Shown here: positions 39,570 to 52,137 of the stretch, piece after piece
How positions within the stretch are numbered: the first letter of the stretch is position 1
Layout: every line of letters starts with the position of its first letter
Source of the DNA: Rivularia sp. PCC 7116
GTDB lineage: Bacteria; Cyanobacteriota; Cyanobacteriia; Cyanobacteriales; Nostocaceae
DNA: 64,000 nucleotides
Assembly (NCBI RefSeq): GCF_000316665.1
Contig: NC_019678.1
Coordinates: 3,162,001 to 3,226,000, forward strand
Reading direction: 5' to 3'
Program-made: the position numbers and the translations under genes
Notes under the pieces: model-generated
Told to the model about the DNA's origin: nothing
Seen by the model: only the letters and a program-made list of their open reading frames with translations
Databases searched by the model: none

Positions 39570-42500
39570 ATGAGCAAGTCAGTTGTAATTAACCTGGGAA
39601 ATGGTGATTTACACAGAGGATGCGAACAAGTGACGGCTCAATTATGGGTTCAAGGTCATCCTCTTCCAGAACAATTTGTCGGCTCTTTGCCACCAGCACC
39701 ACATTTGGTGGAAATGTATAAACGTTGGCAATTTATGTATCAGAGTTTTTACGATTGCCTAAATTTACGTTCGCTATCTTTTGAAGATGATCAAATAGAA
39801 ATCGATGAAAATGATGTAACTAATATCTCCGATGTTAGCTTTGAAGATTTATCCAAGCATTTACGATTGAGTATTAATAACTGGCTCAAATCTGAAGAGT
39901 TTTTGAATATTGAATATAAATTACGTTCTGCATTAAGTCCTTCAGAAGAAATCCAGGTAGTTATTCAAACTAGCGATTTATGGCTGCGACGCATACCTTG
40001 GTGTTGGTGGGATTTTCTCTATGATTATCCTAAAGCCGAAATAGCTCTTTTTAGACCGGAGTATAGAAGAACTAATGTCTTTTCCCAGTCGAGATTGATT
40101 AAAAATCAAGTCAGAATCTTGGCTGTTATTGGTAACAGTATTGGTATTGATTTAGAAGCAGAAAAAACGTTTCTGCAAAACTTACAAGATTCAGAAGTCA
40201 AGTTTCTTGTTCAACCATCACGTCAAGAATTAAACAGATATCTTTGGGACTCACTTGGTTGGGATTTGCTGTTTTTTGCAGGTCATAGCTTAACTGAGAA
40301 GGAAAAAGGAAGAATTTATATTAATGAAAATAAAACAAATAACAGTTTAACCCTCGAACAGTTAGAAGAAGCTCTCAAAGCAGCAATTGAAAATGGTTTG
40401 AAATTAGCAATATTTAATTCCTGCGACGGTTTGGGACTAGCTTCGGTGCTGGAAAAGTTAAATATTCCCACCATAATTTTGATGCGGGAGCCAGTACCAA
40501 ATCTGGTCGCACAACTTTTTTTTAAGTTTTTCTTAGAATTTTTTGCCGAAGAGAAAAATTCTTTATACATATCATTGCAGAAAGCACGCAGGCAGTTACA
40601 AGGAATTGAACATAAGTTCCCCGGTGCTTCGTGTTTACCTTTGATTTTCCAAAACCCAGCTATAGAACCACCTAATTGGATAACTTTGGGGGGGATACCA
40701 CCTTGTCCTTATCGGGGATTATTTGCTTTCAGAGAAGAAGATGCAGACCTGTTTTTTGGACGAGAGCAGTTTAGTTACGATTTATTAAAAGCTGTAAAAA
40801 GCAAAACATTTGTCGCTGTAGTTGGTGCGAGCGGAACCGGTAAGTCCAGTGTGGTATTTGCTGGTTTGATTCCTCGGTTGCGACAAGATGATAGTACCGA
40901 TTGGTTGACTATTTCTTTTCGTCCGGGTAACAAACCCTTTGAAGCATTAGCAATTGCTTTATTACCTTTGTGTTTATCAATTGATTTTTTACAACATAAT
41001 ACAACTACGCCGGAACATGACCGTCATTTGCTCCAGCAAGAACTAACTGCCCGACTAGAATACGAAAGTCAAGCATTGCAAAAAATCGTTGAAGAATTTG
41101 CAAAGCAAAATCCTAATAATCGTTTATTATTAATAGCGGATCAGTTTGAAGAACTCTACACCCTTTGTCCCGAGTCAGAAATCCAGCTTTTTTTAGATGT
41201 ATTATTAGCTGCGGTTAGTTTAGCTCCAGCTTTTACCTTAGTTATTACCTTCAGAGCCGATTTTTACGGTCATGCTTTATCTTACCGTCCATTTAGCGAC
41301 GCTTTGCAGGGAGCCGTGCTTAATCTCGCCCCGATGAATCAAGCAGAATTGCACTCAGCAATTGAAAAACCTGCAACAAAAATGAAAGTCAAGCTTGAGT
41401 ATGGGTTACCAAATAGATTAATCGATGATGTATGGGGTGAATTAGGAAATTTACCGCTGCTAGAATTTGCTTTAACTCAGTTATGGCAAAGACATCACAA
41501 CGGTCAACTCATACACGAAGCTTATACTGAAATTGGTTGCGTCGAAGGTGCTTTGGCTGAATATGGAGAACAAATATATGCTCGACTTTCCCAAGAAGAT
41601 AGAGAAAGAGCGAGACGGATATTTATTCAGTTAGTGCATTTGTCAGAAGGTACTCAAGCTACTCGCAGATTAGCAACTCGCTCTGAGGTGAATAATTGGG
41701 ATTTGGTGACTCATTTAGCATCTGCTCGTTTGTTAGTCACAAATCGTAATGATTCCACTTCCCAAGAAACCGTAGAAATTGTTCATGAAGCTTTGATTAG
41801 AAGTTGGGGACGTTTAGAACACTGGATACAGATTGATAGTGAATTTCGACGCTGGCAAGAACAGCTTAGAGCTGCAATATATCAATGGGAGAAAAGCGGT
41901 GAAGATAAAGGTGCTTTGTTGCGGGGTGTACCTTTAGCAATAGCCAAAGATTGGCAGCAAAAACGCTCCGAAGAACTTAGTGTTAAAGAAAAAGATTTTA
42001 TTCAACGTTCCCAATTACTTTGCGATCGCGAAATCGAAAATCAAAATCGCAGACGACGATTAACCATTATAGGACTGAGTTTCGGTTTGATTTTAGCCTT
42101 GTTTTTAGCTGGGTTTGCTCGATTTCAATGGCAGAATTCTTTAATCAATGAAATCAAAGCTGTTAGCGCTCATTCTCAAGGATTAATTAACTCAAATCAA
42201 AGTTTAGATGCGCTTACAGAAGCAATTAAGGCAAGGCAAAAACTTAAAAAGGTAGTTTGGGCAGATGCAAATATCCAGAAGATGGTTGATTCAACACTAA
42301 GAAAAGCAGTAAACAGTGCAGTTGAATACAACCGCTTGTCAGGACATCAAACTAATGTTTGGAGAGTGACTTTTAGCCCTGATGGAAATAAAATTGCTTC
42401 GGCTTCTTTTAACGGAACAGTCAAACTCTGGGATAAAAATGGTAAATTGCTTCAGACTTTTAAAGCACATAATTCTAGTATTAATAATGTAGCTTTTAGT

Positions 42501-44216
42501 CCTAATAGTGAGATAATTGCCTCCGCTTCTACCGATACAACAGTTAAACTCTGGGATACAAGTGGTAAACTGCTTCAGATTCTAAAAGGGCATACTAGTG
42601 GGGTGAACGGAGTAGCTTTTAGTCCTAACGGTAAGATAATTGCCTCTGCTTCTACTGACAAAACAGTCAAACTTTGGATTAAAGACGGTACATTACTTCG
42701 GACTCTAAAAGGACATAAAAATAAGGTGAACGGAGTAGCTTTTAGTCCTGACGGTACAATAATTGCCTCGGCTTCTATTGACAAAACAGTCAAACTCTGG
42801 AACACAGACGGTACCATCATTAATACCTTAAAAGGACATACTGCTAATGTGAATGAAGTACTATTTAGTCCTGACGGTACAATAATTGCCTCGGCTTCTT
42901 CGGATGGCACCGTCAAGCTCTGGAGTACCAAGAATGGGAGTTTGTTAAAGAGTTTTGAACTTCATGACGATATTGTTTCCTCTATCAGTTTTAGCTCTGA
43001 CGGTAAGATCCTCGCCTCAGCGTCTTTTGATAAGACTATCAAACTCTGGAGTGTCAAGGGTGGCACTTTAATTCAAACTATCAAAAATCATAAAGAAAGA
43101 TTTACGACCGTTAGCTTTAGTCCTCTTAGCGATGCATCCCCCCAGGGTATTGGCAGAACAATCGCTGCGACTTCTATGAGCAAAGATATCCAACTTTTTA
43201 AATTAGACCATTATTTGCAAATCATATTCACTAGTGATAATGAAGTAAGGAGAGTCGCTTACAGCCCGGATGGTATGATGATTGCTTCTGCTAGTGGTAA
43301 GAACATTAAACTCTGGGAACCAGATGGAACCTTATTAAAAAATCTTACGGGTCATAGCGATTTAGTTACTGGAATGGCTTTTAGCCCCATTAGCAAAGCG
43401 TCTCAAGGGAATATTGGTCATAGAATTGCTTCTAGTTCAGCCGATAATATTATTAAAATTTGGCGGACGGATGGCACTTTGTTGCATACTCTTAAAGGTC
43501 ATAAATCTGAGGTTTGGGGCATAGCTTTTAGTCCCGACGGTAAGAAAATTGTCTCTGGAAGTTGGGACAAAACACTCAAAATCTGGAAAATTGAGGATAC
43601 AAACAAACCTATCCTGTTAAAAACCATTACAGGACATAGCGATCGAGTTTGGGCAGTAGCTTTTAGCCCTGATGGTAAGATAATTGCTTCGGCTTCTTTT
43701 GATAGCACCATCAAACTTTGGAAACTAGATGGTACCTTGCTGCATACTTTAAAAGGTCATAATGGATATGTTAGGGCAGTAGCTTTTAGCCCTGATGGAA
43801 AAACAATCGCCTCAGTTTCTGAAGATAGAACCGTAAAATTATGGAAAACGGATGGTACTTTGGTTCAAACTTTCAAGGGTCATGAAGATGAAGTTTGGGC
43901 AGTAGCCTTTAGCCCTGACGGTAAGAAAATTGCTTCTGCTTCTGAAGATAATACTATCAAAATTTGGCAACTAGATGGCACTTTGTTGCGTACTCTCGAT
44001 AGTCATAAAGGTTATGTTATGGGAGTAGCTTTTAGCCCTGACGGTAAGAAAATTGTTTCGGCTAGTGAAGATAAAACCGTAATTGTGTGGAATTTAGAAC
44101 GTATTTTAAGTGATAATTACTTAGTTCACGGTTGTAATTGGGTGCGCGATTATTTGACAAATAATCCTGATGTTAGTGAGAGTGAGAAAGGTATTTGTGA
44201 TGGGGTTGGGGATTGA
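39570..44216 (+). CDS. CHAT protease - STAND NTPase - WD40 repeat protein (NLR-like)
   Basis: A 1548-residue multidomain protein. Residues about 170-370 form a caspase-like CHAT domain with a His/Cys dyad: H239 in FFAGHS and C285 in FNSCDGLG. Residues about 385-800 are a STAND NTPase with Walker A GASGTGKSS (K425) and Walker B RLLLIADQFEELY. A likely membrane segment follows at about 833-853 (IGLSFGLILALFLAGFARF). Fourteen WD40 repeats (about 920-1510) would make two seven-bladed propellers. The plan of effector, NTPase switch and sensor repeats is that of animal and plant NLRs. In bacteria such proteins are associated with phage defence or programmed death. Ligand and protease substrate unknown. 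Not in an operon. Confidence 0.88.
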   Translation: MSKSVVINLGNGDLHRGCEQVTAQLWVQGHPLPEQFVGSLPPAPHLVEMYKRWQFMYQSFYDCLNLRSLSFEDDQIEIDENDVTNISDVSFEDLSKHLRLSINNWLKSEEFLNIEYKLRSALSPSEEIQVVIQTSDLWLRRIPWCWWDFLYDYPKAEIALFRPEYRRTNVFSQSRLIKNQVRILAVIGNSIGIDLEAEKTFLQNLQDSEVKFLVQPSRQELNRYLWDSLGWDLLFFAGHSLTEKEKGRIYINENKTNNSLTLEQLEEALKAAIENGLKLAIFNSCDGLGLASVLEKLNIPTIILMREPVPNLVAQLFFKFFLEFFAEEKNSLYISLQKARRQLQGIEHKFPGASCLPLIFQNPAIEPPNWITLGGIPPCPYRGLFAFREEDADLFFGREQFSYDLLKAVKSKTFVAVVGASGTGKSSVVFAGLIPRLRQDDSTDWLTISFRPGNKPFEALAIALLPLCLSIDFLQHNTTTPEHDRHLLQQELTARLEYESQALQKIVEEFAKQNPNNRLLLIADQFEELYTLCPESEIQLFLDVLLAAVSLAPAFTLVITFRADFYGHALSYRPFSDALQGAVLNLAPMNQAELHSAIEKPATKMKVKLEYGLPNRLIDDVWGELGNLPLLEFALTQLWQRHHNGQLIHEAYTEIGCVEGALAEYGEQIYARLSQEDRERARRIFIQLVHLSEGTQATRRLATRSEVNNWDLVTHLASARLLVTNRNDSTSQETVEIVHEALIRSWGRLEHWIQIDSEFRRWQEQLRAAIYQWEKSGEDKGALLRGVPLAIAKDWQQKRSEELSVKEKDFIQRSQLLCDREIENQNRRRRLTIIGLSFGLILALFLAGFARFQWQNSLINEIKAVSAHSQGLINSNQSLDALTEAIKARQKLKKVVWADANIQKMVDSTLRKAVNSAVEYNRLSGHQTNVWRVTFSPDGNKIASASFNGTVKLWDKNGKLLQTFKAHNSSINNVAFSPNSEIIASASTDTTVKLWDTSGKLLQILKGHTSGVNGVAFSPNGKIIASASTDKTVKLWIKDGTLLRTLKGHKNKVNGVAFSPDGTIIASASIDKTVKLWNTDGTIINTLKGHTANVNEVLFSPDGTIIASASSDGTVKLWSTKNGSLLKSFELHDDIVSSISFSSDGKILASASFDKTIKLWSVKGGTLIQTIKNHKERFTTVSFSPLSDASPQGIGRTIAATSMSKDIQLFKLDHYLQIIFTSDNEVRRVAYSPDGMMIASASGKNIKLWEPDGTLLKNLTGHSDLVTGMAFSPISKASQGNIGHRIASSSADNIIKIWRTDGTLLHTLKGHKSEVWGIAFSPDGKKIVSGSWDKTLKIWKIEDTNKPILLKTITGHSDRVWAVAFSPDGKIIASASFDSTIKLWKLDGTLLHTLKGHNGYVRAVAFSPDGKTIASVSEDRTVKLWKTDGTLVQTFKGHEDEVWAVAFSPDGKKIASASEDNTIKIWQLDGTLLRTLDSHKGYVMGVAFSPDGKKIVSASEDKTVIVWNLERILSDNYLVHGCNWVRDYLTNNPDVSESEKGICDGVGD

Positions 44217-44321
44217 GTAATGAGTAATGAGTAATAAGTAATTGCAATGTCTCTACATAATTGGTTTTAAATCAAATACGAATCCAGGTTAAATATTTTT
44301 AACCGATAGGGTTTTTGGATT

Positions 44322-44597
44322 TTATAAATTTGCACCATTTGGTAATTTAAAACCAGTTGAAGAATCAAAAGCTTTACCTAAATTATTTTTACGAGTCCAA
44401 CCTTGGAGTTGATATGCAATTTCAATATTGCGGTTTCCGGTTTCTCCGACCGTTGGTGACATTATTAATAATTCCCCTGATGCAGTGCGTTCAAATTTCC
44501 ATTCTTGATTTTTTTGACATAGTTGCCAAAATTGTTCGTCGGTTAAGTCGATTGTTAGTCATAGGGTTGATTCGGTATTGATTAGTGAAGTGTTCAT
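44322..44597 (-). pseudogene. Remnant of a Uma2-family (DUF820) endonuclease gene
   Basis: Reading the minus strand from an ATG at 44597 gives 12 residues, a TGA, then LTDEQFWQLCQKNQEWKFER, SGELLIMSPTVGETGNRN and FDSSTGFKLPNGAN before a TAA. This is the first third of a Uma2 protein (normally about 190 residues). The part carrying the PD-(D/E)xK active site is gone. Both an internal stop and a 3' truncation make a working product unlikely. Its stop-proximal end runs into AT-rich spacer next to the NLR-like gene, which may mark an old deletion junction. An intact Uma2 gene lies 4.5 kb away at 49118. Confidence 0.75.
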
Positions 44598-44619
44598 GTT
44601 AAGATACTCATTTTTCGGG

Positions 44620-45258
44620 TTATTTAGGAAAAGCATGACCTCGATAAATTTGTTTAGAATTTCTGGAGATACTAATCCAATTAAGACCTTGTAAGCGGTT
44701 TGTTAAGTTAGAAATTGTAACCCCAAGTTCATCCTTTATTGCGTACAAATGTTTCCATTTAGTTAAATCCCGCCCTCTTGATACTTCTTCCAATTTAAAT
44801 TTAGGCATAAGTAAACAACTAGCAAAATATTGAGCTTGCCATTCAATTCCTTTTTGAGCAGTAACACTACGACATAAAAATGGTTCTATAGTCATTATTA
44901 TTTCAGAACTCATTCTTTCTTTGAATACAGCAAGAGCATCATGCTCGATGTGAAGCAGCCAGTGACCTATTTCATGAGCAATTGTAGATTGTCCAAAACC
45001 ACCTTCTAATCCTGGAATTTGGTCGTTGATAATAATTTCTTTTTGAAATGGAAAAATCATTGCTGCAATATACCCTTGATCATCAAAAGGTATAGTTTCC
45101 CAAACAATTCCTATATCTAAATAATCAGCAATTGCTTCAGCAAGACAACTTCCTTTTAGGGGACGTTTTCTTGTTGCTTGCACCCTATTTAATATATTTA
45201 ATGCCAGTTGCTCTATTTCTTGCTTAGATATAAAACGATATGGCTTGATGACATTCAA
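44620..45258 (-). CDS. ImmA/IrrE-family metallopeptidase
   Basis: Zinc peptidases of this family (M78) cleave or inactivate a cognate XRE repressor after a stress or DNA-damage signal, as with ImmA-ImmR of ICEBs1 and IrrE-DdrO in Deinococcus. The 212-residue protein has the HExxH motif in STIAHEIGHWLLHIEHDA near residue 95, and a family-typical WQAQYFASCLLMP downstream segment supplying further residues. The start appears to be a TTG at 45258, only two bases after the repressor's stop codon, so the pair is translationally coupled. Partner and operon strongly suggest control of the divergent Argonaute operon, which is inference. Confidence 0.85.
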   Translation of the reverse strand: MNVIKPYRFISKQEIEQLALNILNRVQATRKRPLKGSCLAEAIADYLDIGIVWETIPFDDQGYIAAMIFPFQKEIIINDQIPGLEGGFGQSTIAHEIGHWLLHIEHDALAVFKERMSSEIIMTIEPFLCRSVTAQKGIEWQAQYFASCLLMPKFKLEEVSRGRDLTKWKHLYAIKDELGVTISNLTNRLQGLNWISISRNSKQIYRGHAFPK

Positions 45259-45260
45259 CT

Positions 45261-45623
45261 CTATTTCTCCTCATCATCTTGAGTCGTTTCTCTCAATAAT
45301 TCCCTTGCAAATTTGGGTTCATCACGCATTCTGCGAAGTAAAGCAGGCATTTGTTTATACTTTCTTACAAGCTCTTCAAAGACTTCGGCATCTTCGGGGG
45401 TTATTCTTCCTGCAAGTCGTCTGAGTTTATCTTTTTGTTCTGCTAAATCCAGTTTTTCTGCTAATAAATCAATAACTTCCTCGCTAGGAGGATAACCCGC
45501 ATGGTCATTCTCTAATTTAGACAAGTACGTATAGTTAACCCCTACCAATTTAGCTAGCTCGCGTTGACTGTACTCTTTCTGTTTGCGAGCTTGCCGAATG
45601 AGTTTACCAAAGCTTTCTTTCAC
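45261..45623 (-). CDS. XRE-family helix-turn-helix repressor paired with ImmA-like protease
   Basis: 120 residues. The N-terminal HTH_3 domain reads IRQARKQKEYSQRELAKLVG then VNYTYLSKLEN, with the recognition helix in VNYTYLSKLE. The C-terminal half is charged (KLDLAEQKDKLRRLAGRI; VRKYKQMPALLRRMRDEPK) and could be the protease-sensitive or dimerising part. The start is GTG at 45623 with GGAAGAG as ribosome site. It sits 143 bases from, and divergent to, the start of the small protein-nuclease-Argonaute operon, the classic position of a repressor controlling both directions. Confidence 0.87.
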   Translation of the reverse strand: MKESFGKLIRQARKQKEYSQRELAKLVGVNYTYLSKLENDHAGYPPSEEVIDLLAEKLDLAEQKDKLRRLAGRITPEDAEVFEELVRKYKQMPALLRRMRDEPKFARELLRETTQDDEEK

Positions 45624-45699
45624 GGTTCTCTTCCTTTAAGTCTAAGAATCATACTCTACCTTTTCTCAATGGTTCATATCTGTAAAATTTTCAATTATG

Positions 45700-45716
45700 T
45701 TGACTAAATTGGTCAA
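45700..45716. promoter_or_regulatory. Candidate operator between the XRE gene and the Argonaute operon
   Basis: A 17-bp near-palindrome TTGACTAAATTGGTCAA (14 of 17 positions symmetric) sits in the divergent spacer, just upstream of a TATAGT (45735-45740) that could be the -10 box of the rightward operon. It is a natural binding site candidate for the adjacent HTH protein. Confidence 0.45.
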
Positions 45717-45766
45717 GTTGTGCAATAACTACACTATAGTACATAAGCTCGTTAATCTCTAGTCAA

Positions 45767-45991
45767 ATGAATAAAAAACAACAAATAAACTCAAATCAGC
45801 TATCTTTTTCTATCGGTAGACCTTTAGCAGTTCTTTTAGAAGAGGTACAGAATTCAAGTGGCGATACAAATTTGAAACAAGCTGCGGAGCAGATGTTAGA
45901 AGCTTTGCATACTTTTGAAATTGCTAATAAACCAGGTGTATCTAAATCAGCTATAACCAGTCAAGCGATTTACGAAATTCTCACAAAATGA
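45767..45991 (+). CDS. Small unknown protein, first gene of the Argonaute operon
   Basis: 74 residues, predicted mostly helical: LSFSIGRPLAVLLEEVQ, LKQAAEQMLEALHTFEIA and KSAITSQAIYEILTK. No family recognised, no metal-binding or membrane motifs. The size, helical make-up and position could fit a small DNA-binding, antitoxin-like or adaptor protein. It is separated by 19 bases from the Cas4-like nuclease gene and sits directly behind the divergent promoter. The ATG at 45767 is the only reasonable start. Codon use is like that of its neighbours. Confidence 0.6.
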   Translation: MNKKQQINSNQLSFSIGRPLAVLLEEVQNSSGDTNLKQAAEQMLEALHTFEIANKPGVSKSAITSQAIYEILTK

Positions 45992-46010
45992 ATAAAATTA
46001 AGAGTTTTTT

Positions 46011-46826
46011 ATGAAAAAAGTTTGGAATTTTGCAAGCTACAATCTGTTGTCTTTGTACTCTCCACCAGTAGGACTCGAACATCTTCATTGTGATATGAAA
46101 AGAGGTTTTGCTAAAGCGAGAAAAAAGGAAACAGAAGTAGCAGCACTTTTGGAAAAAGATAATACGGCTCAGACTATAGGTTTGCTGGCACAAAAAGCGG
46201 TTTACGAAATTCATCAAGATTCTTCAATTTTTTCTCAAAAAGATGGTCTGAGTCGAATAGTTAGCATTTTGCACTTAAGTAAAGAATCCGATTTAGTTCG
46301 AGAAAGGGTAACTCAAATAATTAAAAATTATCTTGAAAATCCGATTCTTCTACACAAAAAAATAATCAAGCTCAGTAGAGGTGATGAGGGTTTTCCCGAA
46401 CCAATTTTAATTCAGCAGGGTAATTATTTATTTAATTTATATGCAGCAATCGACTGCATTTTCTTAGAAGAAGATAATAGTCTACATATTTTGGATTTCA
46501 AAACTGGTAAGTCCGACTTTGACCGCAGACAAGCTTATATTTATTTGTTAGCTGCTAGCTATATTTACCCAGAAAATAAAGCTGTTGCTTCGTTTTATAA
46601 CTTGGAAACCTGCAAGCAATCAGAAAGAATTACAGCTACACCTGAAACGTTAGAATCTTTTCAAATTACGATGTCTAGGACAGCAAAACAGCATCAAAAA
46701 GATTTACGACGTTACCGTCAAAAAACTGGTGATTTTCGAGATATATTTCCCCAAAATCCCGGTATAAGCTGTCGATTTTGTCCTTTTAATTCAATTTGTG
46801 AATTTACTATTGAGGGTGCTATATGA
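46011..46826 (+). CDS. Cas4-like PD-(D/E)xK nuclease with four-Cys Fe-S motif
   Basis: A 271-residue RecB/Cas4-type nuclease. The catalytic core is D148 (AAIDCIF), D162-F-K164 (ILDFKTGK) and the QxxxY motif Q174-Y178 (RRQAYIY). Four cysteines match the Cas4/AddB iron-sulfur arrangement: C27 near the N-terminus and C254, C257, C263 at the C-terminus ([13 protein letters not shown]). There are no cas1, cas2 or CRISPR repeats in the window, so it is not part of a CRISPR adaptation locus here. Its stop overlaps the Argonaute start by four bases (ATGA), showing translational coupling. Likely job: processing ends or making or trimming DNA for Argonaute guides; this is inference. Confidence 0.85.
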
Positions 46827-49072
46827 AAGGTGCTATGGTTCAACCACGTCCGCAATCTGCTTTAGAAACAAAGTTTTTAAGCGAAATATTACCTTTAATA
46901 ATTTTAAAAGATTTAACATTGAATTTTATCTGTTTTCGACTTTCTCCGGAAGTAGAGCGAGAAATTGGCAACCGTTTAAGTTGGCGTTTTTGTCACAAGT
47001 TTCCAGATGTTATTGTTATCTGGTACAAAAAGCTTTTTTGGGCTTTAGCTAAACCAAATCAAGTAATGCCAAGCCAGAAAGAATGGCGAGAAGCATTAAC
47101 AGAAATATGTGAAGAATTGAGAAAAGATATCGGCGATTGCGATTATTCTATTCAATGGGTACGTCAGCCGCAGTTAAAAGCTTCTATATTAGCTCAGTTA
47201 GCGGTTAGAATAATAAAAATTACTCGTCCTTTTTCATCAAAAATAGCTTTATCAGAAAAACAGGTAGAAGTAAAACGCGAAGCCAATTTTTGGGCTGAAA
47301 CTATAGAAATAAACAACCAGCTTTTCTCAGCTTTAACAATAACTGTTAAGAGTAATTTTAGTTATAAAGGTAATTTAGCGGAATTTTTTGAAAATCATCC
47401 TTTTAGACAAGATCCACAAAAGCTTTTAATCGGTTTAAAGGTTCGGGATATAGAACACAATAGCCTTGCTACAATTACCGGAATTATTGGTAATATTAGC
47501 GAACATAGAGAAAGATTAAAAGAAGATGCAACTGGTGCAATTAGCAAGCAAGCATTAGAAGAAGCACCCGACGATCAACCAGTAGTTACCGTGCAATTTG
47601 GTAAGAAGAATAAACAATTTCGCTATGCGATGGCAGCTTTACGTCCTTGTGTAACTGCTGAAACTACTAATAAATTTGAAGTAGATTATGGAAAATTACT
47701 TAAAGCAACTAAGGTAGCTTGTAGAGAAAGAAAAGAACTTTTAGGGGCTTACAAGAAAGAAGCAAATATAGTTTTAACTAATTATGGATTAAAATTAGGA
47801 CAAAGTATAAATAGTTCTAGCTATTCACAATTATTTTGGCAACCATTATTAAAGCTTTCAGAAACTAAACTATTATTTGGTAACAATAGAATTGGTATTC
47901 AACAACGTATATTGACAGGACTTTCTCAAGGTGGAGTTTATTCCCGTCATGAGGATTACAAAGATCCATCAGATAAAATTAATATAGCTGCTTTAAAAAT
48001 AGGTAATTTTCAGGTTTCATTTTCTTTTTTAGATGAAGTTGACAAACGTTTAAAACGATATGGTTTTGGAAGTATACGAGCAAAAGAAAATATAAAATCA
48101 ATCTCTTCAGAAAGTTTTACTAGTATCGAGAGTAGAGTCAATATTGAGGAAGCTATAGATGATTTGATGGAAAGACATCCTGATATAGTTTTAGTCTTTT
48201 TGCCTACTAGTGATAGAAGTACTGACGATACAGGTGATAGTCTTTATTCTTTGGTTTACTCGCGTTTGCTAAGACGAGGAATCGCTAGCCAAGTAATTTA
48301 TGAAGATACTTTAAAAAAAGTTCAAGTTAATAATATTCTCAATCAAGTTATTCCTGGAATATTAGCTAAGTTAGGTAACTTACCTTATGTGTTAGCTGAA
48401 CCATTAAAAATAGCAGATTTTTTTATTGGCTTAGATATTTCTAGAGGTTCCAAAAAGAAAACTGCTGGAACTATGAATGCCTGTGCGAGTTTAAGACTTT
48501 ATAAAGAAAACGGGGAATTCAACGGCTATAAATTGGAAGATGCTTTAATAGAAGGTGAAGAAATTCCCCGAAGAGTTTTAGAAAAATTTCTTCCACGAGC
48601 AAAATTAAAAGGAAAGACTGTTTTAATCTATCGAGACGGACGTTTTTGCGGTCAAGAAGCTATACATTTAAAAGAATGGGCAGAAGTTATAAATTCTAAA
48701 TTTGTTTTAGTGGAATGTTATAAATCAGGAATACCTCGGCTTTATAACTGGAATGGACAAGTTATTAAAGCACCTACAAAAGGTTTAGCACTTCGTGTCT
48801 CTTCTCGTGAAGTGATTTTAGTAACCACAGAATTAAAATCGGAAAATATGGGTTTACCTCTCCCATTGCGTTTAAGAATTCATGAAGCAGGTCATCAAGT
48901 ATCAATTGAAGATTTAGTCGATACTACACTCAAACTTACATTACTTCATTATGGCTCCCTTAGAGAACCACGTTTACCAGTACCGCTTTACGGCTCCGAT
49001 GTTATGGCTTACCGACGCTTACAAGGTATTTATCCAGGTGCGTTAGATGGCGATCGCCAATTCTGGCTCTAA
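46823..49072 (+). CDS. ago: Long prokaryotic Argonaute with apparently intact catalytic tetrad
   Basis: A 749-residue protein with N, L1, PAZ-like (about 160-290), MID (about 430-530) and PIWI (about 530-745) regions. Catalytic residues of the RNase H-like PIWI fold are visible: D538 in GLDISRG, a glutamate finger in EGEEIP (577-580), D605 in IYRDGRF and D726 in [10 protein letters not shown], aligning with the His of the YYAH motif in human Ago2. The MID pocket has Q490 and K516 at the expected spacing, but the usual Lys four residues after the first aromatic is Tyr (Y475/Y479). Related cyanobacterial Argonautes use DNA guides against DNA. The ATG overlaps the nuclease stop. Confidence 0.92.
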
Positions 49073-49117
49073 CACCCCCAACCGCTAAACTAAAACAAAA
49101 TCCTCTCACCTCCCCCC

Positions 49118-49825
49118 ATGCTTTCCACCGCTCCCGAATACCAAATTACCTGGGAAAAACTCCCCGAAGACTTTGTTCTAGATAACAAACCCGTGGATAA
49201 TATCAATCAACCGTTGCTTGCTGCTGCATTAACCGAAAGTTTAGAAATTGCCGGGAAATTACCAGATAATTCTCTCACTTCCAGCAACTACGGAATCTGC
49301 GCGACGGTAAATCAAAAAATGGTAGTAAAAGCCCCCGATTGGGCTTATATCCCAAAAATAACCGTATCTCGACAAGAAATAAAACGCAGCTACACCCCGC
49401 AACTTCAAGGAGATATTCCAGTTATTGTTATGGAATTTCTTTCCGATACTGAAGGCGGAGAGTATTCAATTAAACCTACTTATCCTCCGGGTAAATGGTT
49501 CTTTTACGAGCAAGTTTTAGAAGTTCCTAACTATATAATTTTTGAACCAGATAGCGGTGAAATAGAAGTCTATCAATTAGATGATTTAAAACGGTATCAT
49601 CTGCAAAAAGCTGATGCTAATAACCGTTTCTGGATTGCTCAAATGCAGCTATTTCTAGGAGTATGGGAAGGTACTAGAGAAAATCGCACCGGTTATTGGC
49701 TGCGATGGTGGGATGAAAATCAAAATATTTTATTATGGGGTTCGGAAAAAGCAAATCTGGAAAGTCAAAGAGCAGAACGTTTAGCAGCACAACTCAGAGC
49801 AGCAGGCATTGAACCAGAAATTTAA
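49118..49825 (+). CDS. Uma2-family (DUF820) PD-(D/E)xK endonuclease
   Basis: Uma2 proteins are small restriction-endonuclease-fold proteins abundant in cyanobacteria, with no clear physiological role. The 235-residue sequence shows KAPDWAYIPKI (conserved Asp), PVIVMEFLSDTEGGEYSIK (Glu) and PGKWFFYEQVLEVPNYIIFEPDSGEIEVY in separate blocks; the WLRWWDENQ region and a Leu/Arg-rich terminal helix (ERLAAQLRAAG) are typical of the longer Uma2 subtype. The Lys of the ExK motif is not clear by eye. It begins 45 bases after ago on the same strand and may be co-transcribed, but Uma2 genes are so common that this could be chance. Confidence 0.85.
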   Translation: MLSTAPEYQITWEKLPEDFVLDNKPVDNINQPLLAAALTESLEIAGKLPDNSLTSSNYGICATVNQKMVVKAPDWAYIPKITVSRQEIKRSYTPQLQGDIPVIVMEFLSDTEGGEYSIKPTYPPGKWFFYEQVLEVPNYIIFEPDSGEIEVYQLDDLKRYHLQKADANNRFWIAQMQLFLGVWEGTRENRTGYWLRWWDENQNILLWGSEKANLESQRAERLAAQLRAAGIEPEI

Positions 49826-50020
49826 AAAATACCAGCAATTCTAATACGATATAAAAATGTACCGAATTTAGCCAGCGCAGGTTAACTTTGTATTGCTAGC
49901 TTCACTCTTCTAGAGTCACAGCTATTATGCCAATTTTTATATCACTAATAAATTTTCTCATTGTTTAACGTCAAGTCTTCCGTCTTAATATGATGAGGTT
50001 GGCAAAAATCCAAAGTATTT

Positions 50021-51406
50021 ATGACTTCATCGCAGAAAAAAGACACTTTCCATAAGTGGCGTTTAACACCTGGTTATCTCAGAGAAAAAGGCTCGGATTT
50101 ACAATCAATGCTGATTTTACTCGGACGTTTTCTCACAGATAGGAGTTCAAAAGATCCTTTACCAGAAAAATCATTATTTTCTGAAGATGGAAAGTTTGAA
50201 TGGGGAGATACATCACCTTTAGAAAAAGTCATTAATTCTCCAGGAGATTGGGAATTTTTACTTCAGCATCCTCAGATATCTCGCAACTGTATTTTTATTG
50301 TTGAACCTTGGAAGCACGTTGGTTTTAACAGTTTATATGAAGAAGTCAGAGCATCTAAAAATGTCGCTTTCATTGCTCAAAAATTAGCTGATTGTGATTC
50401 AATTTTATTCCCAGCTTGGGATGTAGGAACCCTCGATTTAAACTCGGTAGTTCCTATTCTGTCTTCCAGTATGGCAGTGATACTAGAAGGTGGTAATGCT
50501 TCGGCTCACGATTCCTCTCAATGGAATGATTGTGACTGTTCTAGGGAAGAGATGTTGGCTTTGGTTGAGAAACTTCTCTTATCCCGCTCTCCTCAAAGCG
50601 CTCCCGTTATTATGATTTGTGTTAGCCATCAATTAGCAGCAGAATGTCACGTTCGTTTATTAAAACGTGCGGTTCAAGAAATACTTAATACAGATGCTTT
50701 AGCTCGCGATGTTGAAGGGGAAGCCTTAATTTCTTTGAAGTCAGTAGTAGAAAAAATTCAGTCACTAGGTAAAAATCTTAAAATTGAAAAGCGAGATGGT
50801 AGAATCGTCGCTGAAGGCTGGGATGATGCCAATTTTGCAGTAGTTCTTAACGAAGACAAAGAAATCGGCGATCGCCACTTATTACCTTACCGAACCCCAA
50901 ATGCTAAAAACTCAATAATTCCCATTGAACTGCTCGAAGCTCATAAAATTATGGCTTACGAACATGAAGGAGTAATTGACAAAATGATTTTAGAACATGG
51001 ACGTGATGTTGCGATTTCCATGTTTCACTACGACGAAGTTAACGAAGAAGCGATTCTTTTCGCAAACTGGGCTTATATTTCGCTGCACAATGCCATCATT
51101 CCCCATCGACATATCATAGCTGGCAGCAGTCTTTCTTGGCTGTTGCAATTACCTTACTCAGTCGAGATTTTAGCCTCAACAGAAGCAGAAGGAAAAATAT
51201 TAACTGAATGCTCTTGTACCTGCATCAACTATAAAGATTTTGAAACCAAAAAAATGCGTCGCTCTTTTACCTGTCAGTTTCATCCAGAGTTACTCAGCGA
51301 TTTACGAGAAATTGGTAAACGTCCCGAACCATCTTACACGGAACTAAAGCAAAGCGACGGCACTCGATTATTAGTACAACTACTTTACGAATCAATACAA
51401 GAGTGA
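50021..51406 (+). CDS. Orphan protein with class I glutamine-amidotransferase-like triad
   Basis: A 461-residue soluble protein. PVIMICVSHQLAAE places a nucleophile-like C200 in the elbow sequence Cys-x-x-His-Gln (glutaminases usually have C-x-G-x), and FTCQFHPELL supplies H421 and E423. ILEGGNASAHD before the Cys resembles the oxyanion-hole strand. The 220-residue gap between Cys and His is more than twice the usual, so a large insertion (about 270-390) interrupts the fold. No synthetase domain is present. Function unknown; ammonia donor, peptidase of the same fold or amidase are possibilities. ATG start; its 3' end runs into inverted heptamer repeats shared with psaD. Confidence 0.65.
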   Translation: MTSSQKKDTFHKWRLTPGYLREKGSDLQSMLILLGRFLTDRSSKDPLPEKSLFSEDGKFEWGDTSPLEKVINSPGDWEFLLQHPQISRNCIFIVEPWKHVGFNSLYEEVRASKNVAFIAQKLADCDSILFPAWDVGTLDLNSVVPILSSSMAVILEGGNASAHDSSQWNDCDCSREEMLALVEKLLLSRSPQSAPVIMICVSHQLAAECHVRLLKRAVQEILNTDALARDVEGEALISLKSVVEKIQSLGKNLKIEKRDGRIVAEGWDDANFAVVLNEDKEIGDRHLLPYRTPNAKNSIIPIELLEAHKIMAYEHEGVIDKMILEHGRDVAISMFHYDEVNEEAILFANWAYISLHNAIIPHRHIIAGSSLSWLLQLPYSVEILASTEAEGKILTECSCTCINYKDFETKKMRRSFTCQFHPELLSDLREIGKRPEPSYTELKQSDGTRLLVQLLYESIQE

Positions 51407-51620
51407 ACAGTTAACAGTTAACAGTTATCAGTGAACAGTTATCAGTTATCAATTATTACTTCTGAGTTAAACATAATAGTACAGGGAAAGACATACAGTT
51501 TAAAAGCCCCAACCGACAATCTATTTCCCATATTTTTTGTTCAATTCCCGAAAAACAGATTAACTGCTAACTTTTCGCTGTTTACTGTTCGCTGTTCGCT
51601 GTTCACTGTTCGCTGTTTTA
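51405..51620. repeat. Opposed AACAGTT and CTGTTCA heptamer clusters between convergent genes
   Basis: Left cluster (51409-51452): degenerate GTGAACAG/GTTAACAG units. Right cluster (51578-51617): complementary CTGTTCGCTGTTCAC units. RNA from either strand could fold into a long imperfect stem between the two stop codons and serve as a two-way terminator. Confidence 0.6.
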
Positions 51621-51621
51621 A

Positions 51622-52050
51622 CTACGAATTAGGAGCGTCATAAGGTGCGACACCGCTAAACTTAAGTTTTGCAGCACTGGGATTATCGCCGATTTTACGA
51701 GCGTTGAAACGCACTTTTTCGCGACCTTCGTTAACCTTCTCGGGGAAGACACCATCAGCCGGATGTAAGTACTGAGTTTCGCCACTAGGATAAATCCGGT
51801 AAATTTTATAATCAGTGATTTTCATTTTCCGGAATTGAGCGCCTAAAGCAATGCCGTACTCTTTACGAGCAATTTCCAGCATGTTTTCGCCTTCAAGCAT
51901 TGTTGCAGCGCCACCAGTAGGCATTTCAAAAACCTGTTGTTTGGGGCTAGTCCAAGTAATCGCGTATTTTTCTTCTTCTACTGCTTTCTTGAGCAAGCCG
52001 CCGGTGCTGCCACCAAATAACGGGGTTTGTCCAGAGAGTGTTCCTGCCAT
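51622..52050 (-). CDS. psaD: Photosystem I reaction center subunit II
   Basis: PsaD is the stromal-side extrinsic subunit of photosystem I that docks ferredoxin and stabilises PsaC. The 142-residue protein reads [56 protein letters not shown] and [13 protein letters not shown]. The start is the ATG at 52050 (MAGTLSGQ), preceded by a GAGAG ribosome-like site; a longer frame from 52101 only adds leader sequence. A few usually basic positions in the region after the MEG core differ (FRKMKITDY), but all landmarks are present. It is the housekeeping marker at the right edge of the accessory block. Confidence 0.96.
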
Positions 52051-52137
52051 AAATATTCTCTCAACGTTTTTACGGCATCCTAACACTGCAAGCGGTGTCA
52101 TATTGCGATTACGTTAGGAACTTTAACAAAAATTGAG

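Follow-up and report, generated by a model that had tools for sequence, protein, structure and literature searches.

We analyzed a 64,000-nucleotide stretch of DNA from the cyanobacterium Rivularia sp. PCC 7116 (contig NC_019678.1, positions 3,162,001 to 3,226,000; hereafter the window), taken from a genome of 8.73 Mb in three contigs, and focused our attention on an operon encoding a Cas4-like nuclease and an Argonaute (Ago), together with a divergently oriented gene pair encoding an XRE-family repressor and an ImmA-type metalloprotease that may control it. The features of the locus, in window coordinates, are the following:

44620..45258, minus strand: ImmA/IrrE-type (M78) metallopeptidase, CapP-like, proposed repressor-inactivating protease (TTG start; PF06114, PADLOC capP)
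45261..45623, minus strand: XRE/helix-turn-helix (HTH) repressor, CapH-like, subtype A (GTG start; HTH_3, PADLOC capH)
45624-45766: divergent spacer of 143 bp, from the XRE gene to the 74-residue open reading frame (ORF)
45699..45717, no strand assigned: putative operator GTTGACTAAATTGGTCAAG, of the GTTG-N11-CAAC type with one mismatch, a conserved palindrome (G000:C1:3207699-3207717 in the scan of its own genome)
45700..45728, plus strand: candidate promoter for Cas4-Ago transcription, TTGACT, 17 nt, CAATAA (by eye; weak)
45767..45991, plus strand: 74-residue accessory protein of no recognised family, optional operon member (an ORF; found in this slot in 13 of 388 genomes, that of the window among them)
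46011..46826, plus strand: Cas4-like PD-(D/E)XK nuclease, Argonaute partner (PDDEXK_1; PADLOC Aga_Cas4-like_Nuc)
46823..49072, plus strand: full-length catalytic long-A Argonaute (Piwi; PADLOC pAgo_II; PDB 9iad)
49118-49825: Uma2-family gene, outside the module

The nuclease gene lies directly upstream of ago and is co-directional with it, the ATGA at 46823-46826 being common to the end of the former and the start of the latter. This overlap, the gene order and the 143-bp spacer had all been described in an earlier note on this DNA, and each was recovered at the window coordinates. The interval given in that note (45261-49825) does hold the XRE, 74-residue, Cas4-like and ago genes, but it omits the ImmA gene and takes in the Uma2-family gene; the latter was rejected as part of the module, since it directly follows ago only in the window and in a close Rivularia relative (L001).

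On profile matches, the nuclease and the Argonaute form a pair of a known kind, class II Aga in PADLOC. The nuclease matches Aga_Cas4-like_Nuc (E = 1.9e-139) and the PDB entries 9iab (3.2e-120, 404 bits) and 9iac (8.8e-91), and its residues D148, D162 and K164, as well as C27, C254, C257 and C263, are conserved in 66 of 66 aligned rows; the four cysteines are those of Cas4-type iron-sulphur proteins and may bind a cluster. No phage-borne form of the nuclease was found in 50,697 phage records. Moreover, the Argonaute matches pAgo_II (E = 0) and PDB 9iad (1107 bits), and its catalytic tetrad is intact in the window (D538, E579, D605 and D726). Across 65 aligned rows, D538 and E579 are each kept in 65 and D605 in 64, while the fourth position is D in 55, H in 6 and a gap in 4. 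Its closest named relative, 91% identical, comes from a Rivularia metagenome-assembled genome, in a single-sequence contig search that gave one close relative only. By analogy with its relatives, the window Argonaute would be guided by DNA and would target invading DNA. A 2025 paper in Molecular Cell reportedly deals with cyanobacterial Argonautes that have Cas4-family nucleases.

The recurrence of this arrangement was evaluated in two sets of genomes. Within the order, 388 genomes were searched and 100 had an Argonaute match, from which 66 near full-length loci of 64 genomes were fetched, leaving out split or fragmentary matches (some with E < 1e-100, e.g., G085, G180, G102, G120, G226 and G355), the majority of the distant matches, and L029, a contig of 3.7 kb. 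A search of 388 genomes of the class gave a match in 36 genomes outside the order, and 20 loci from 20 of these were fetched, leaving out G572, G549 and G618, the matches that were weaker, and any second match in a genome, as with G520:C242. A Cas4-like gene lies upstream of ago in 62 of the 66 order loci, and the divergent XRE-ImmA pair stands beside 50 of them (both totals exclude the window and L001); L039, L040 and L047, in which the XRE and an ImmA-like match fall within one open frame, were counted in favor of the arrangement. Outside the order, the pair accompanies 7 of 14 Cas4-Ago loci. It was found neither at the four order loci lacking an upstream Cas4 nor at the six distant Cas4-less Argonautes outside the order, that is, at none of the ten Cas4-less loci fetched. 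The XRE-ImmA/Cas4-Ago gene order thus recurs beyond chance, and the outcome that the earlier note had named as speaking against its proposal, a consistent lack of the pair in genomes with ago, was not observed. One could still suppose that the pair is an unrelated passenger, or a toxin-antitoxin-like cassette sharing defence islands with Argonaute: ImmA homologues occur in 182 of the 388 genomes, many away from Argonaute, and in Nostoc sp. CENA543 the module sits on a 44-kb mobilizable plasmid (L129, NZ_CP023282.1). However, the pair is absent from all ten Cas4-less loci, its divergent orientation is kept across the order and beyond, and the operator described below is both conserved and matched to the repressor subtype, so that we regard this explanation as highly improbable.

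On reading the spacers between the XRE gene and the operon, we noticed a palindrome, GTTGAC-N7-GTCAAC, which lies at 45699-45717 in the window. Allowing up to two mismatches, it was found within the first 160 bp of 39 out of 52 spacers, a set that takes in the window and L001, as compared to a mean of 0.19 and a maximum of 2 in 200 dinucleotide shuffles, and it was absent from the 300 bp before cas4 in all 12 Cas4-Ago loci without XRE. Because the pattern came from the same spacer data, an unbiased search was run over all 5-base dyads (gaps of 3 to 12, up to one mismatch) in a dereplicated set of 33 spacers; its top dyad, GTTGA-N9-TCAAC, corresponds to the palindrome already noticed and was present in 25 of the 33, the best dyad in each of 100 shuffled sets reaching 5 to 10 spacers. 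We consider this palindrome a putative operator for XRE, placed where expression of the defence operon would be controlled. In the window genome as a whole the operator is not enriched, the scan at up to one mismatch giving 11 sites and the reversed control 15; a genome-wide XRE regulon was rejected on these numbers, and control thus looks local to the locus.

The spacing of the operator half-sites follows the repressor. By alignment, two subtypes of XRE can be told apart, A, to which that of the window belongs, and B, in which four residues are missing after GRIP; the subtypes were defined after the first set had been seen, and held-out XRE proteins were assigned by eye under the same rule. 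Exact GTTG/CAAC half-sites were found at N11 in 33 of 45 subtype A loci (0 to 3 at nine other spacings), and at N10 in five of seven subtype B loci, none of which has them at N11. With one mismatch allowed, 43 of the 45 have an N11 site and all seven an N10 site. The association of subtype and spacing has a Fisher p of 7e-8, with relatedness ignored, in a table that omits L047 (no call) and takes L039 as discordant on a one-mismatch site. In addition, all seven held-out pair loci outside the order have an operator with the spacing that fits their subtype (Fisher p = 0.029), namely three of subtype B with N10, in one case with a single mismatch, and four of subtype A with exact N11, and this agreement adds weight to the covariation of repressor and operator. 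XRE-ImmA pairs fetched from stand-alone sites are of subtype B and have an N10-type site upstream in 17 of 18 cases, a count with no shuffle control.

In the window, the possible operon promoter read by eye (TTGACT-17-CAATAA) has its -35 element inside the operator, and on the minus strand the site TTGACC-18-GAAAAT, found by a consensus scan (2 sites, shuffle mean 0.9), overlaps it. In spacers of the L066 type, the two divergent promoters read by eye, TTGACT-18-TATAAT in one direction and TTGACT-18-TAGAGT in the other, have their -35 regions within a single operator, and a second operator copy lies on the operon side. These spacers bear on the alternative in which XRE binds the palindrome and regulates only itself and ImmA, Cas4-Ago being constitutive. 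The consensus scan of the window favors it, having recovered the minus-strand site and missed the operon-side promoter, but the L066-type layout, with both -35 regions under one operator and a further copy towards the operon, argues the other way, and we find a constitutive operon very unlikely.

We then considered what the two controlling proteins are. In the window, the HTH repressor gene adjoins an M78 protease gene whose product carries HExxH at residues 95-99; H95, E96 and G98 are invariant, and H99 nearly so, among 35 sequences. ImmA matches Pfam Peptidase_M78 (PF06114, 1.9e-7) and PADLOC capP (9.8e-17 in the window), the latter being matched by 35 of 35 aligned ImmA members, and has a weak match to the NCBIfam spr1629 repressor/antitoxin family (28.9 bits against a cut-off of 335). 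A profile of the 35 proteins retrieved CapP (7t5t, 6.1e-6), the sole other match being a fusion construct (0.0087). A structure prediction of ImmA from two input sequences was too poor for use, with a mean pLDDT (predicted local distance difference test) score of 39, and the window genome holds one other M78 match. The XRE protein matches HTH_3 (9e-13) and PADLOC capH (5.3e-10, second after HTH_VI at 4.2e-11), and its profile retrieved 21 HTH chains, including CapH (7t5u, 2.6e-4), with SinR and others scoring better. As judged from these matches, the pair resembles the CapH/CapP switch of defence operons.

Whether the likeness extends to the signal is a separate matter. The CapP profile match extends over positions 88-182 of 215, the peptidase core, and M78 controllers of mobile elements, such as ImmR/ImmA, answer several inputs. 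Both points fit an alternative in which XRE-ImmA does control Cas4-Ago, the signal being something other than single-stranded DNA (ssDNA) or DNA damage, e.g., a plasmid or phage protein or a peptide, or in which ImmA merely aids XRE turnover. On the other side, among proteins of solved structure the profile search ranked highest CapP, reported in passages of two papers to be activated by ssDNA (PMC13373217, PMC10904395), and we regard a different signal as rather unlikely. In the first of these, CapP is described as being activated on ssDNA binding and then cleaving CapH, and in the second, PprI is described as sensing ssDNA, with PprI/DdrO following the same logic as CapP/CapH. By analogy with CapP and PprI, ssDNA or DNA damage may be the trigger, a proposal that we hold with less confidence than repression itself.

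Our preferred reading, to which we assign a probability of roughly 75%, is that XRE represses the Cas4-Ago operon via the operator and that ImmA relieves this repression. An XRE dimer would bind the palindrome within the 143-bp spacer and, while bound, would repress its own gene pair as well as the nuclease-Argonaute operon; activated ImmA would cleave or otherwise inactivate XRE, and the derepressed operon would then yield nuclease and Argonaute together for attack on invading DNA. DNA binding, repression and XRE proteolysis are steps that we infer. A fuller version, possible although doubtful, has ssDNA as a shared ligand: ssDNA of a replicating or damaged invader would activate ImmA, XRE would be destroyed, and nuclease and Argonaute would be induced, with cutting yielding more ssDNA and guide precursors, in a self-feeding manner, until the invader is gone; in addition, Argonaute loci would have swapped controllers of different subtype, each along with the operator that suits it. 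The earlier note proposed that a divergent pair of repressor and metalloprotease controls the operon of Cas4-like nuclease and Argonaute, and this is supported insofar as the pair recurs, resembles CapH/CapP, and is accompanied by a palindrome whose spacing follows the XRE subtype; the triggers it suggested, DNA damage or phage DNA, may apply by analogy with CapP and PprI.

Several observations weigh against repression through this operator. The operator and class counts are uncorrected for relatedness. With one mismatch allowed, spacings other than N11 also reach 1 to 14 of the 45 subtype A loci, so only exact sites discriminate well, and L039 and L047, both of subtype A, are without an N11 site. 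On the Argonaute tree, from which three rows with a short extracted Argonaute (L001, L051 and L063) were omitted, subtype changes between A and B three times, giving only one starred independent contrast (three in all); all are concordant, and with so few of them the match of subtype and spacing is suggestive on phylogenetic grounds alone. To these can be added the forward promoter of the window missed by the scan, and the finding of the same XRE-ImmA family away from Argonaute. Moreover, the pair is missing at 16 of the 66 order loci and at 7 of the 14 Cas4-Ago loci outside the order, and at L051 and L053, counted among the 50, a stop breaks the ImmA frame. Four pair-less loci (L058, L064, L080 and L081) have short stretches with a weak match to XRE or ImmA (E of 2e-4 to 7e-3) near the expected place, which suggests decay of the pair.

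Other loci of the same controller family, or of other possible controllers, were also observed. Among the 18 stand-alone pairs, ten (L098, L099, L102, L104, L105, L107-L110 and L112) precede two long, charged proteins without known function, with N10-type palindromes between except in L108, and look like a second XRE-ImmA-controlled cyanobacterial system. Three further pairs (L100, L101 and L103) precede a different conserved gene set, and two of the L101 proteins have no Pfam match. In G350 and G380 (L115 and L116), ImmA directly adjoins what is left of the 3' end of ago, and neither XRE nor cas4 is matched in the vicinity; these relics show a similar deletion outcome in two genomes. Four pair-less Cas4-Ago loci (L139, L140, L141 and L144) have a 490-residue HTH protein on the opposite strand upstream, as well as a second small gene; the HTH protein carries HExxH in L139 and L144 and is perhaps a fused controller of another type. 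Directly before cas4-ago, L138 and L147 have a MazG-domain gene and a gene that by eye resembles thymidylate kinase.

The 74-residue protein, whose co-occurrence with nuclease-Argonaute the earlier note had proposed to check, is not supported as a co-required part. It occurs in 17 of 388 genomes, sits ahead of cas4 in 13 of these, and has no Pfam, PADLOC or NCBIfam match; its gene was rejected as a core part on its rarity and lack of a recognised family. It is optional in the Cas4-Ago operon and probably a defence-operon accessory. The other four genomes hold a weaker relative (37-39% identical) away from Argonaute, which stands beside a NACHT ATPase in three (L130, L132 and L133); in the fourth, the contig starts nearby. 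PDB matches of the 74-residue profile (best 4.2e-8, to a designed pentatricopeptide repeat protein, with no single passing stretch) were rejected as repeat/helix composition, and a structure prediction from two input sequences (mean pLDDT 69) was too poor for use. In eight fetched loci (L032, L042, L044, L046, L056, L059, L060 and L062) the slot between XRE and cas4 is filled by an MMADHC-like protein, an identity checked against Pfam for L042 only (PF10229, 1.5e-17). This B12-pathway family is unexpected inside an Argonaute operon; across the order it is widespread, with members in 160 of 388 genomes.

Regarding the surroundings, a 1548-residue protein with nSTAND1 and WD40 repeats lies left of ImmA (39570-44216) and may belong to a defence island, and psaD lies 2.5 kb beyond ago.

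To our knowledge, little is known of how and when prokaryotic Argonautes (pAgo) turn on. The Cas4-Ago pairing is itself already known, as is the CapH/CapP kind of controller: Cas4-related nucleases beside pAgo genes were reported in 2009 and 2018, in passages of PMC2743648 and PMC6299218, respectively. Passages of the latter also give DNA-binding-domain proteins in 19% of long-A operons, and do not name an XRE-ImmA pair. The new part is the control, i.e., a proposed XRE-ImmA switch with a defined operator on Cas4-Ago, with signs of controller exchange; no description of CapH/CapP-like control of Argonaute was found among the matches listed in a search of mostly open-access literature. A switch that is defined by an operator and controlled by a protease, on an Argonaute operon widespread among cyanobacteria, would suggest that such systems are induced rather than always on, and the analysis names a DNA site and two proteins as candidates for Argonaute control. 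If true, CapH/CapP-like control extends to Argonaute.

Among known systems, class II Aga (PDB 9iab, 9iac and 9iad) has the same two proteins in the same order as the window, whereas the passages cited here give no repressor/protease pair or operator for such operons. SeAgo of S. elongatus is, like the window Argonaute, a cyanobacterial long-A Argonaute, and passages of PMC10653904 report that loss of ago or of the Cas4-like gene each favored transfer or maintenance of an RSF1010 plasmid; unlike in the window, those passages do not place the two genes adjacent, and they do not mention XRE. ImmR/ImmA of ICEBs1 and PprI/DdrO of Deinococcus share with the window an XRE repressor and an M78 metalloprotease; no integrase or conjugation gene was found among the nine window ORFs scanned against Pfam (39570-52101), and a relative lies on a mobilizable plasmid. 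According to passages of PMC13373217, regulators of the CapW/BrxR and CapH+CapP types, taken together, act on BREX, Pycsar, CBASS, DISARM and Bub operons, and the word Argonaute does not occur in its main text. The proposed window switch has in common with CapH/CapP an HTH repressor and an M78 protease adjoining a defence operon, and differs in that its gene pair is divergent from an Argonaute operon and has a palindrome of its own.

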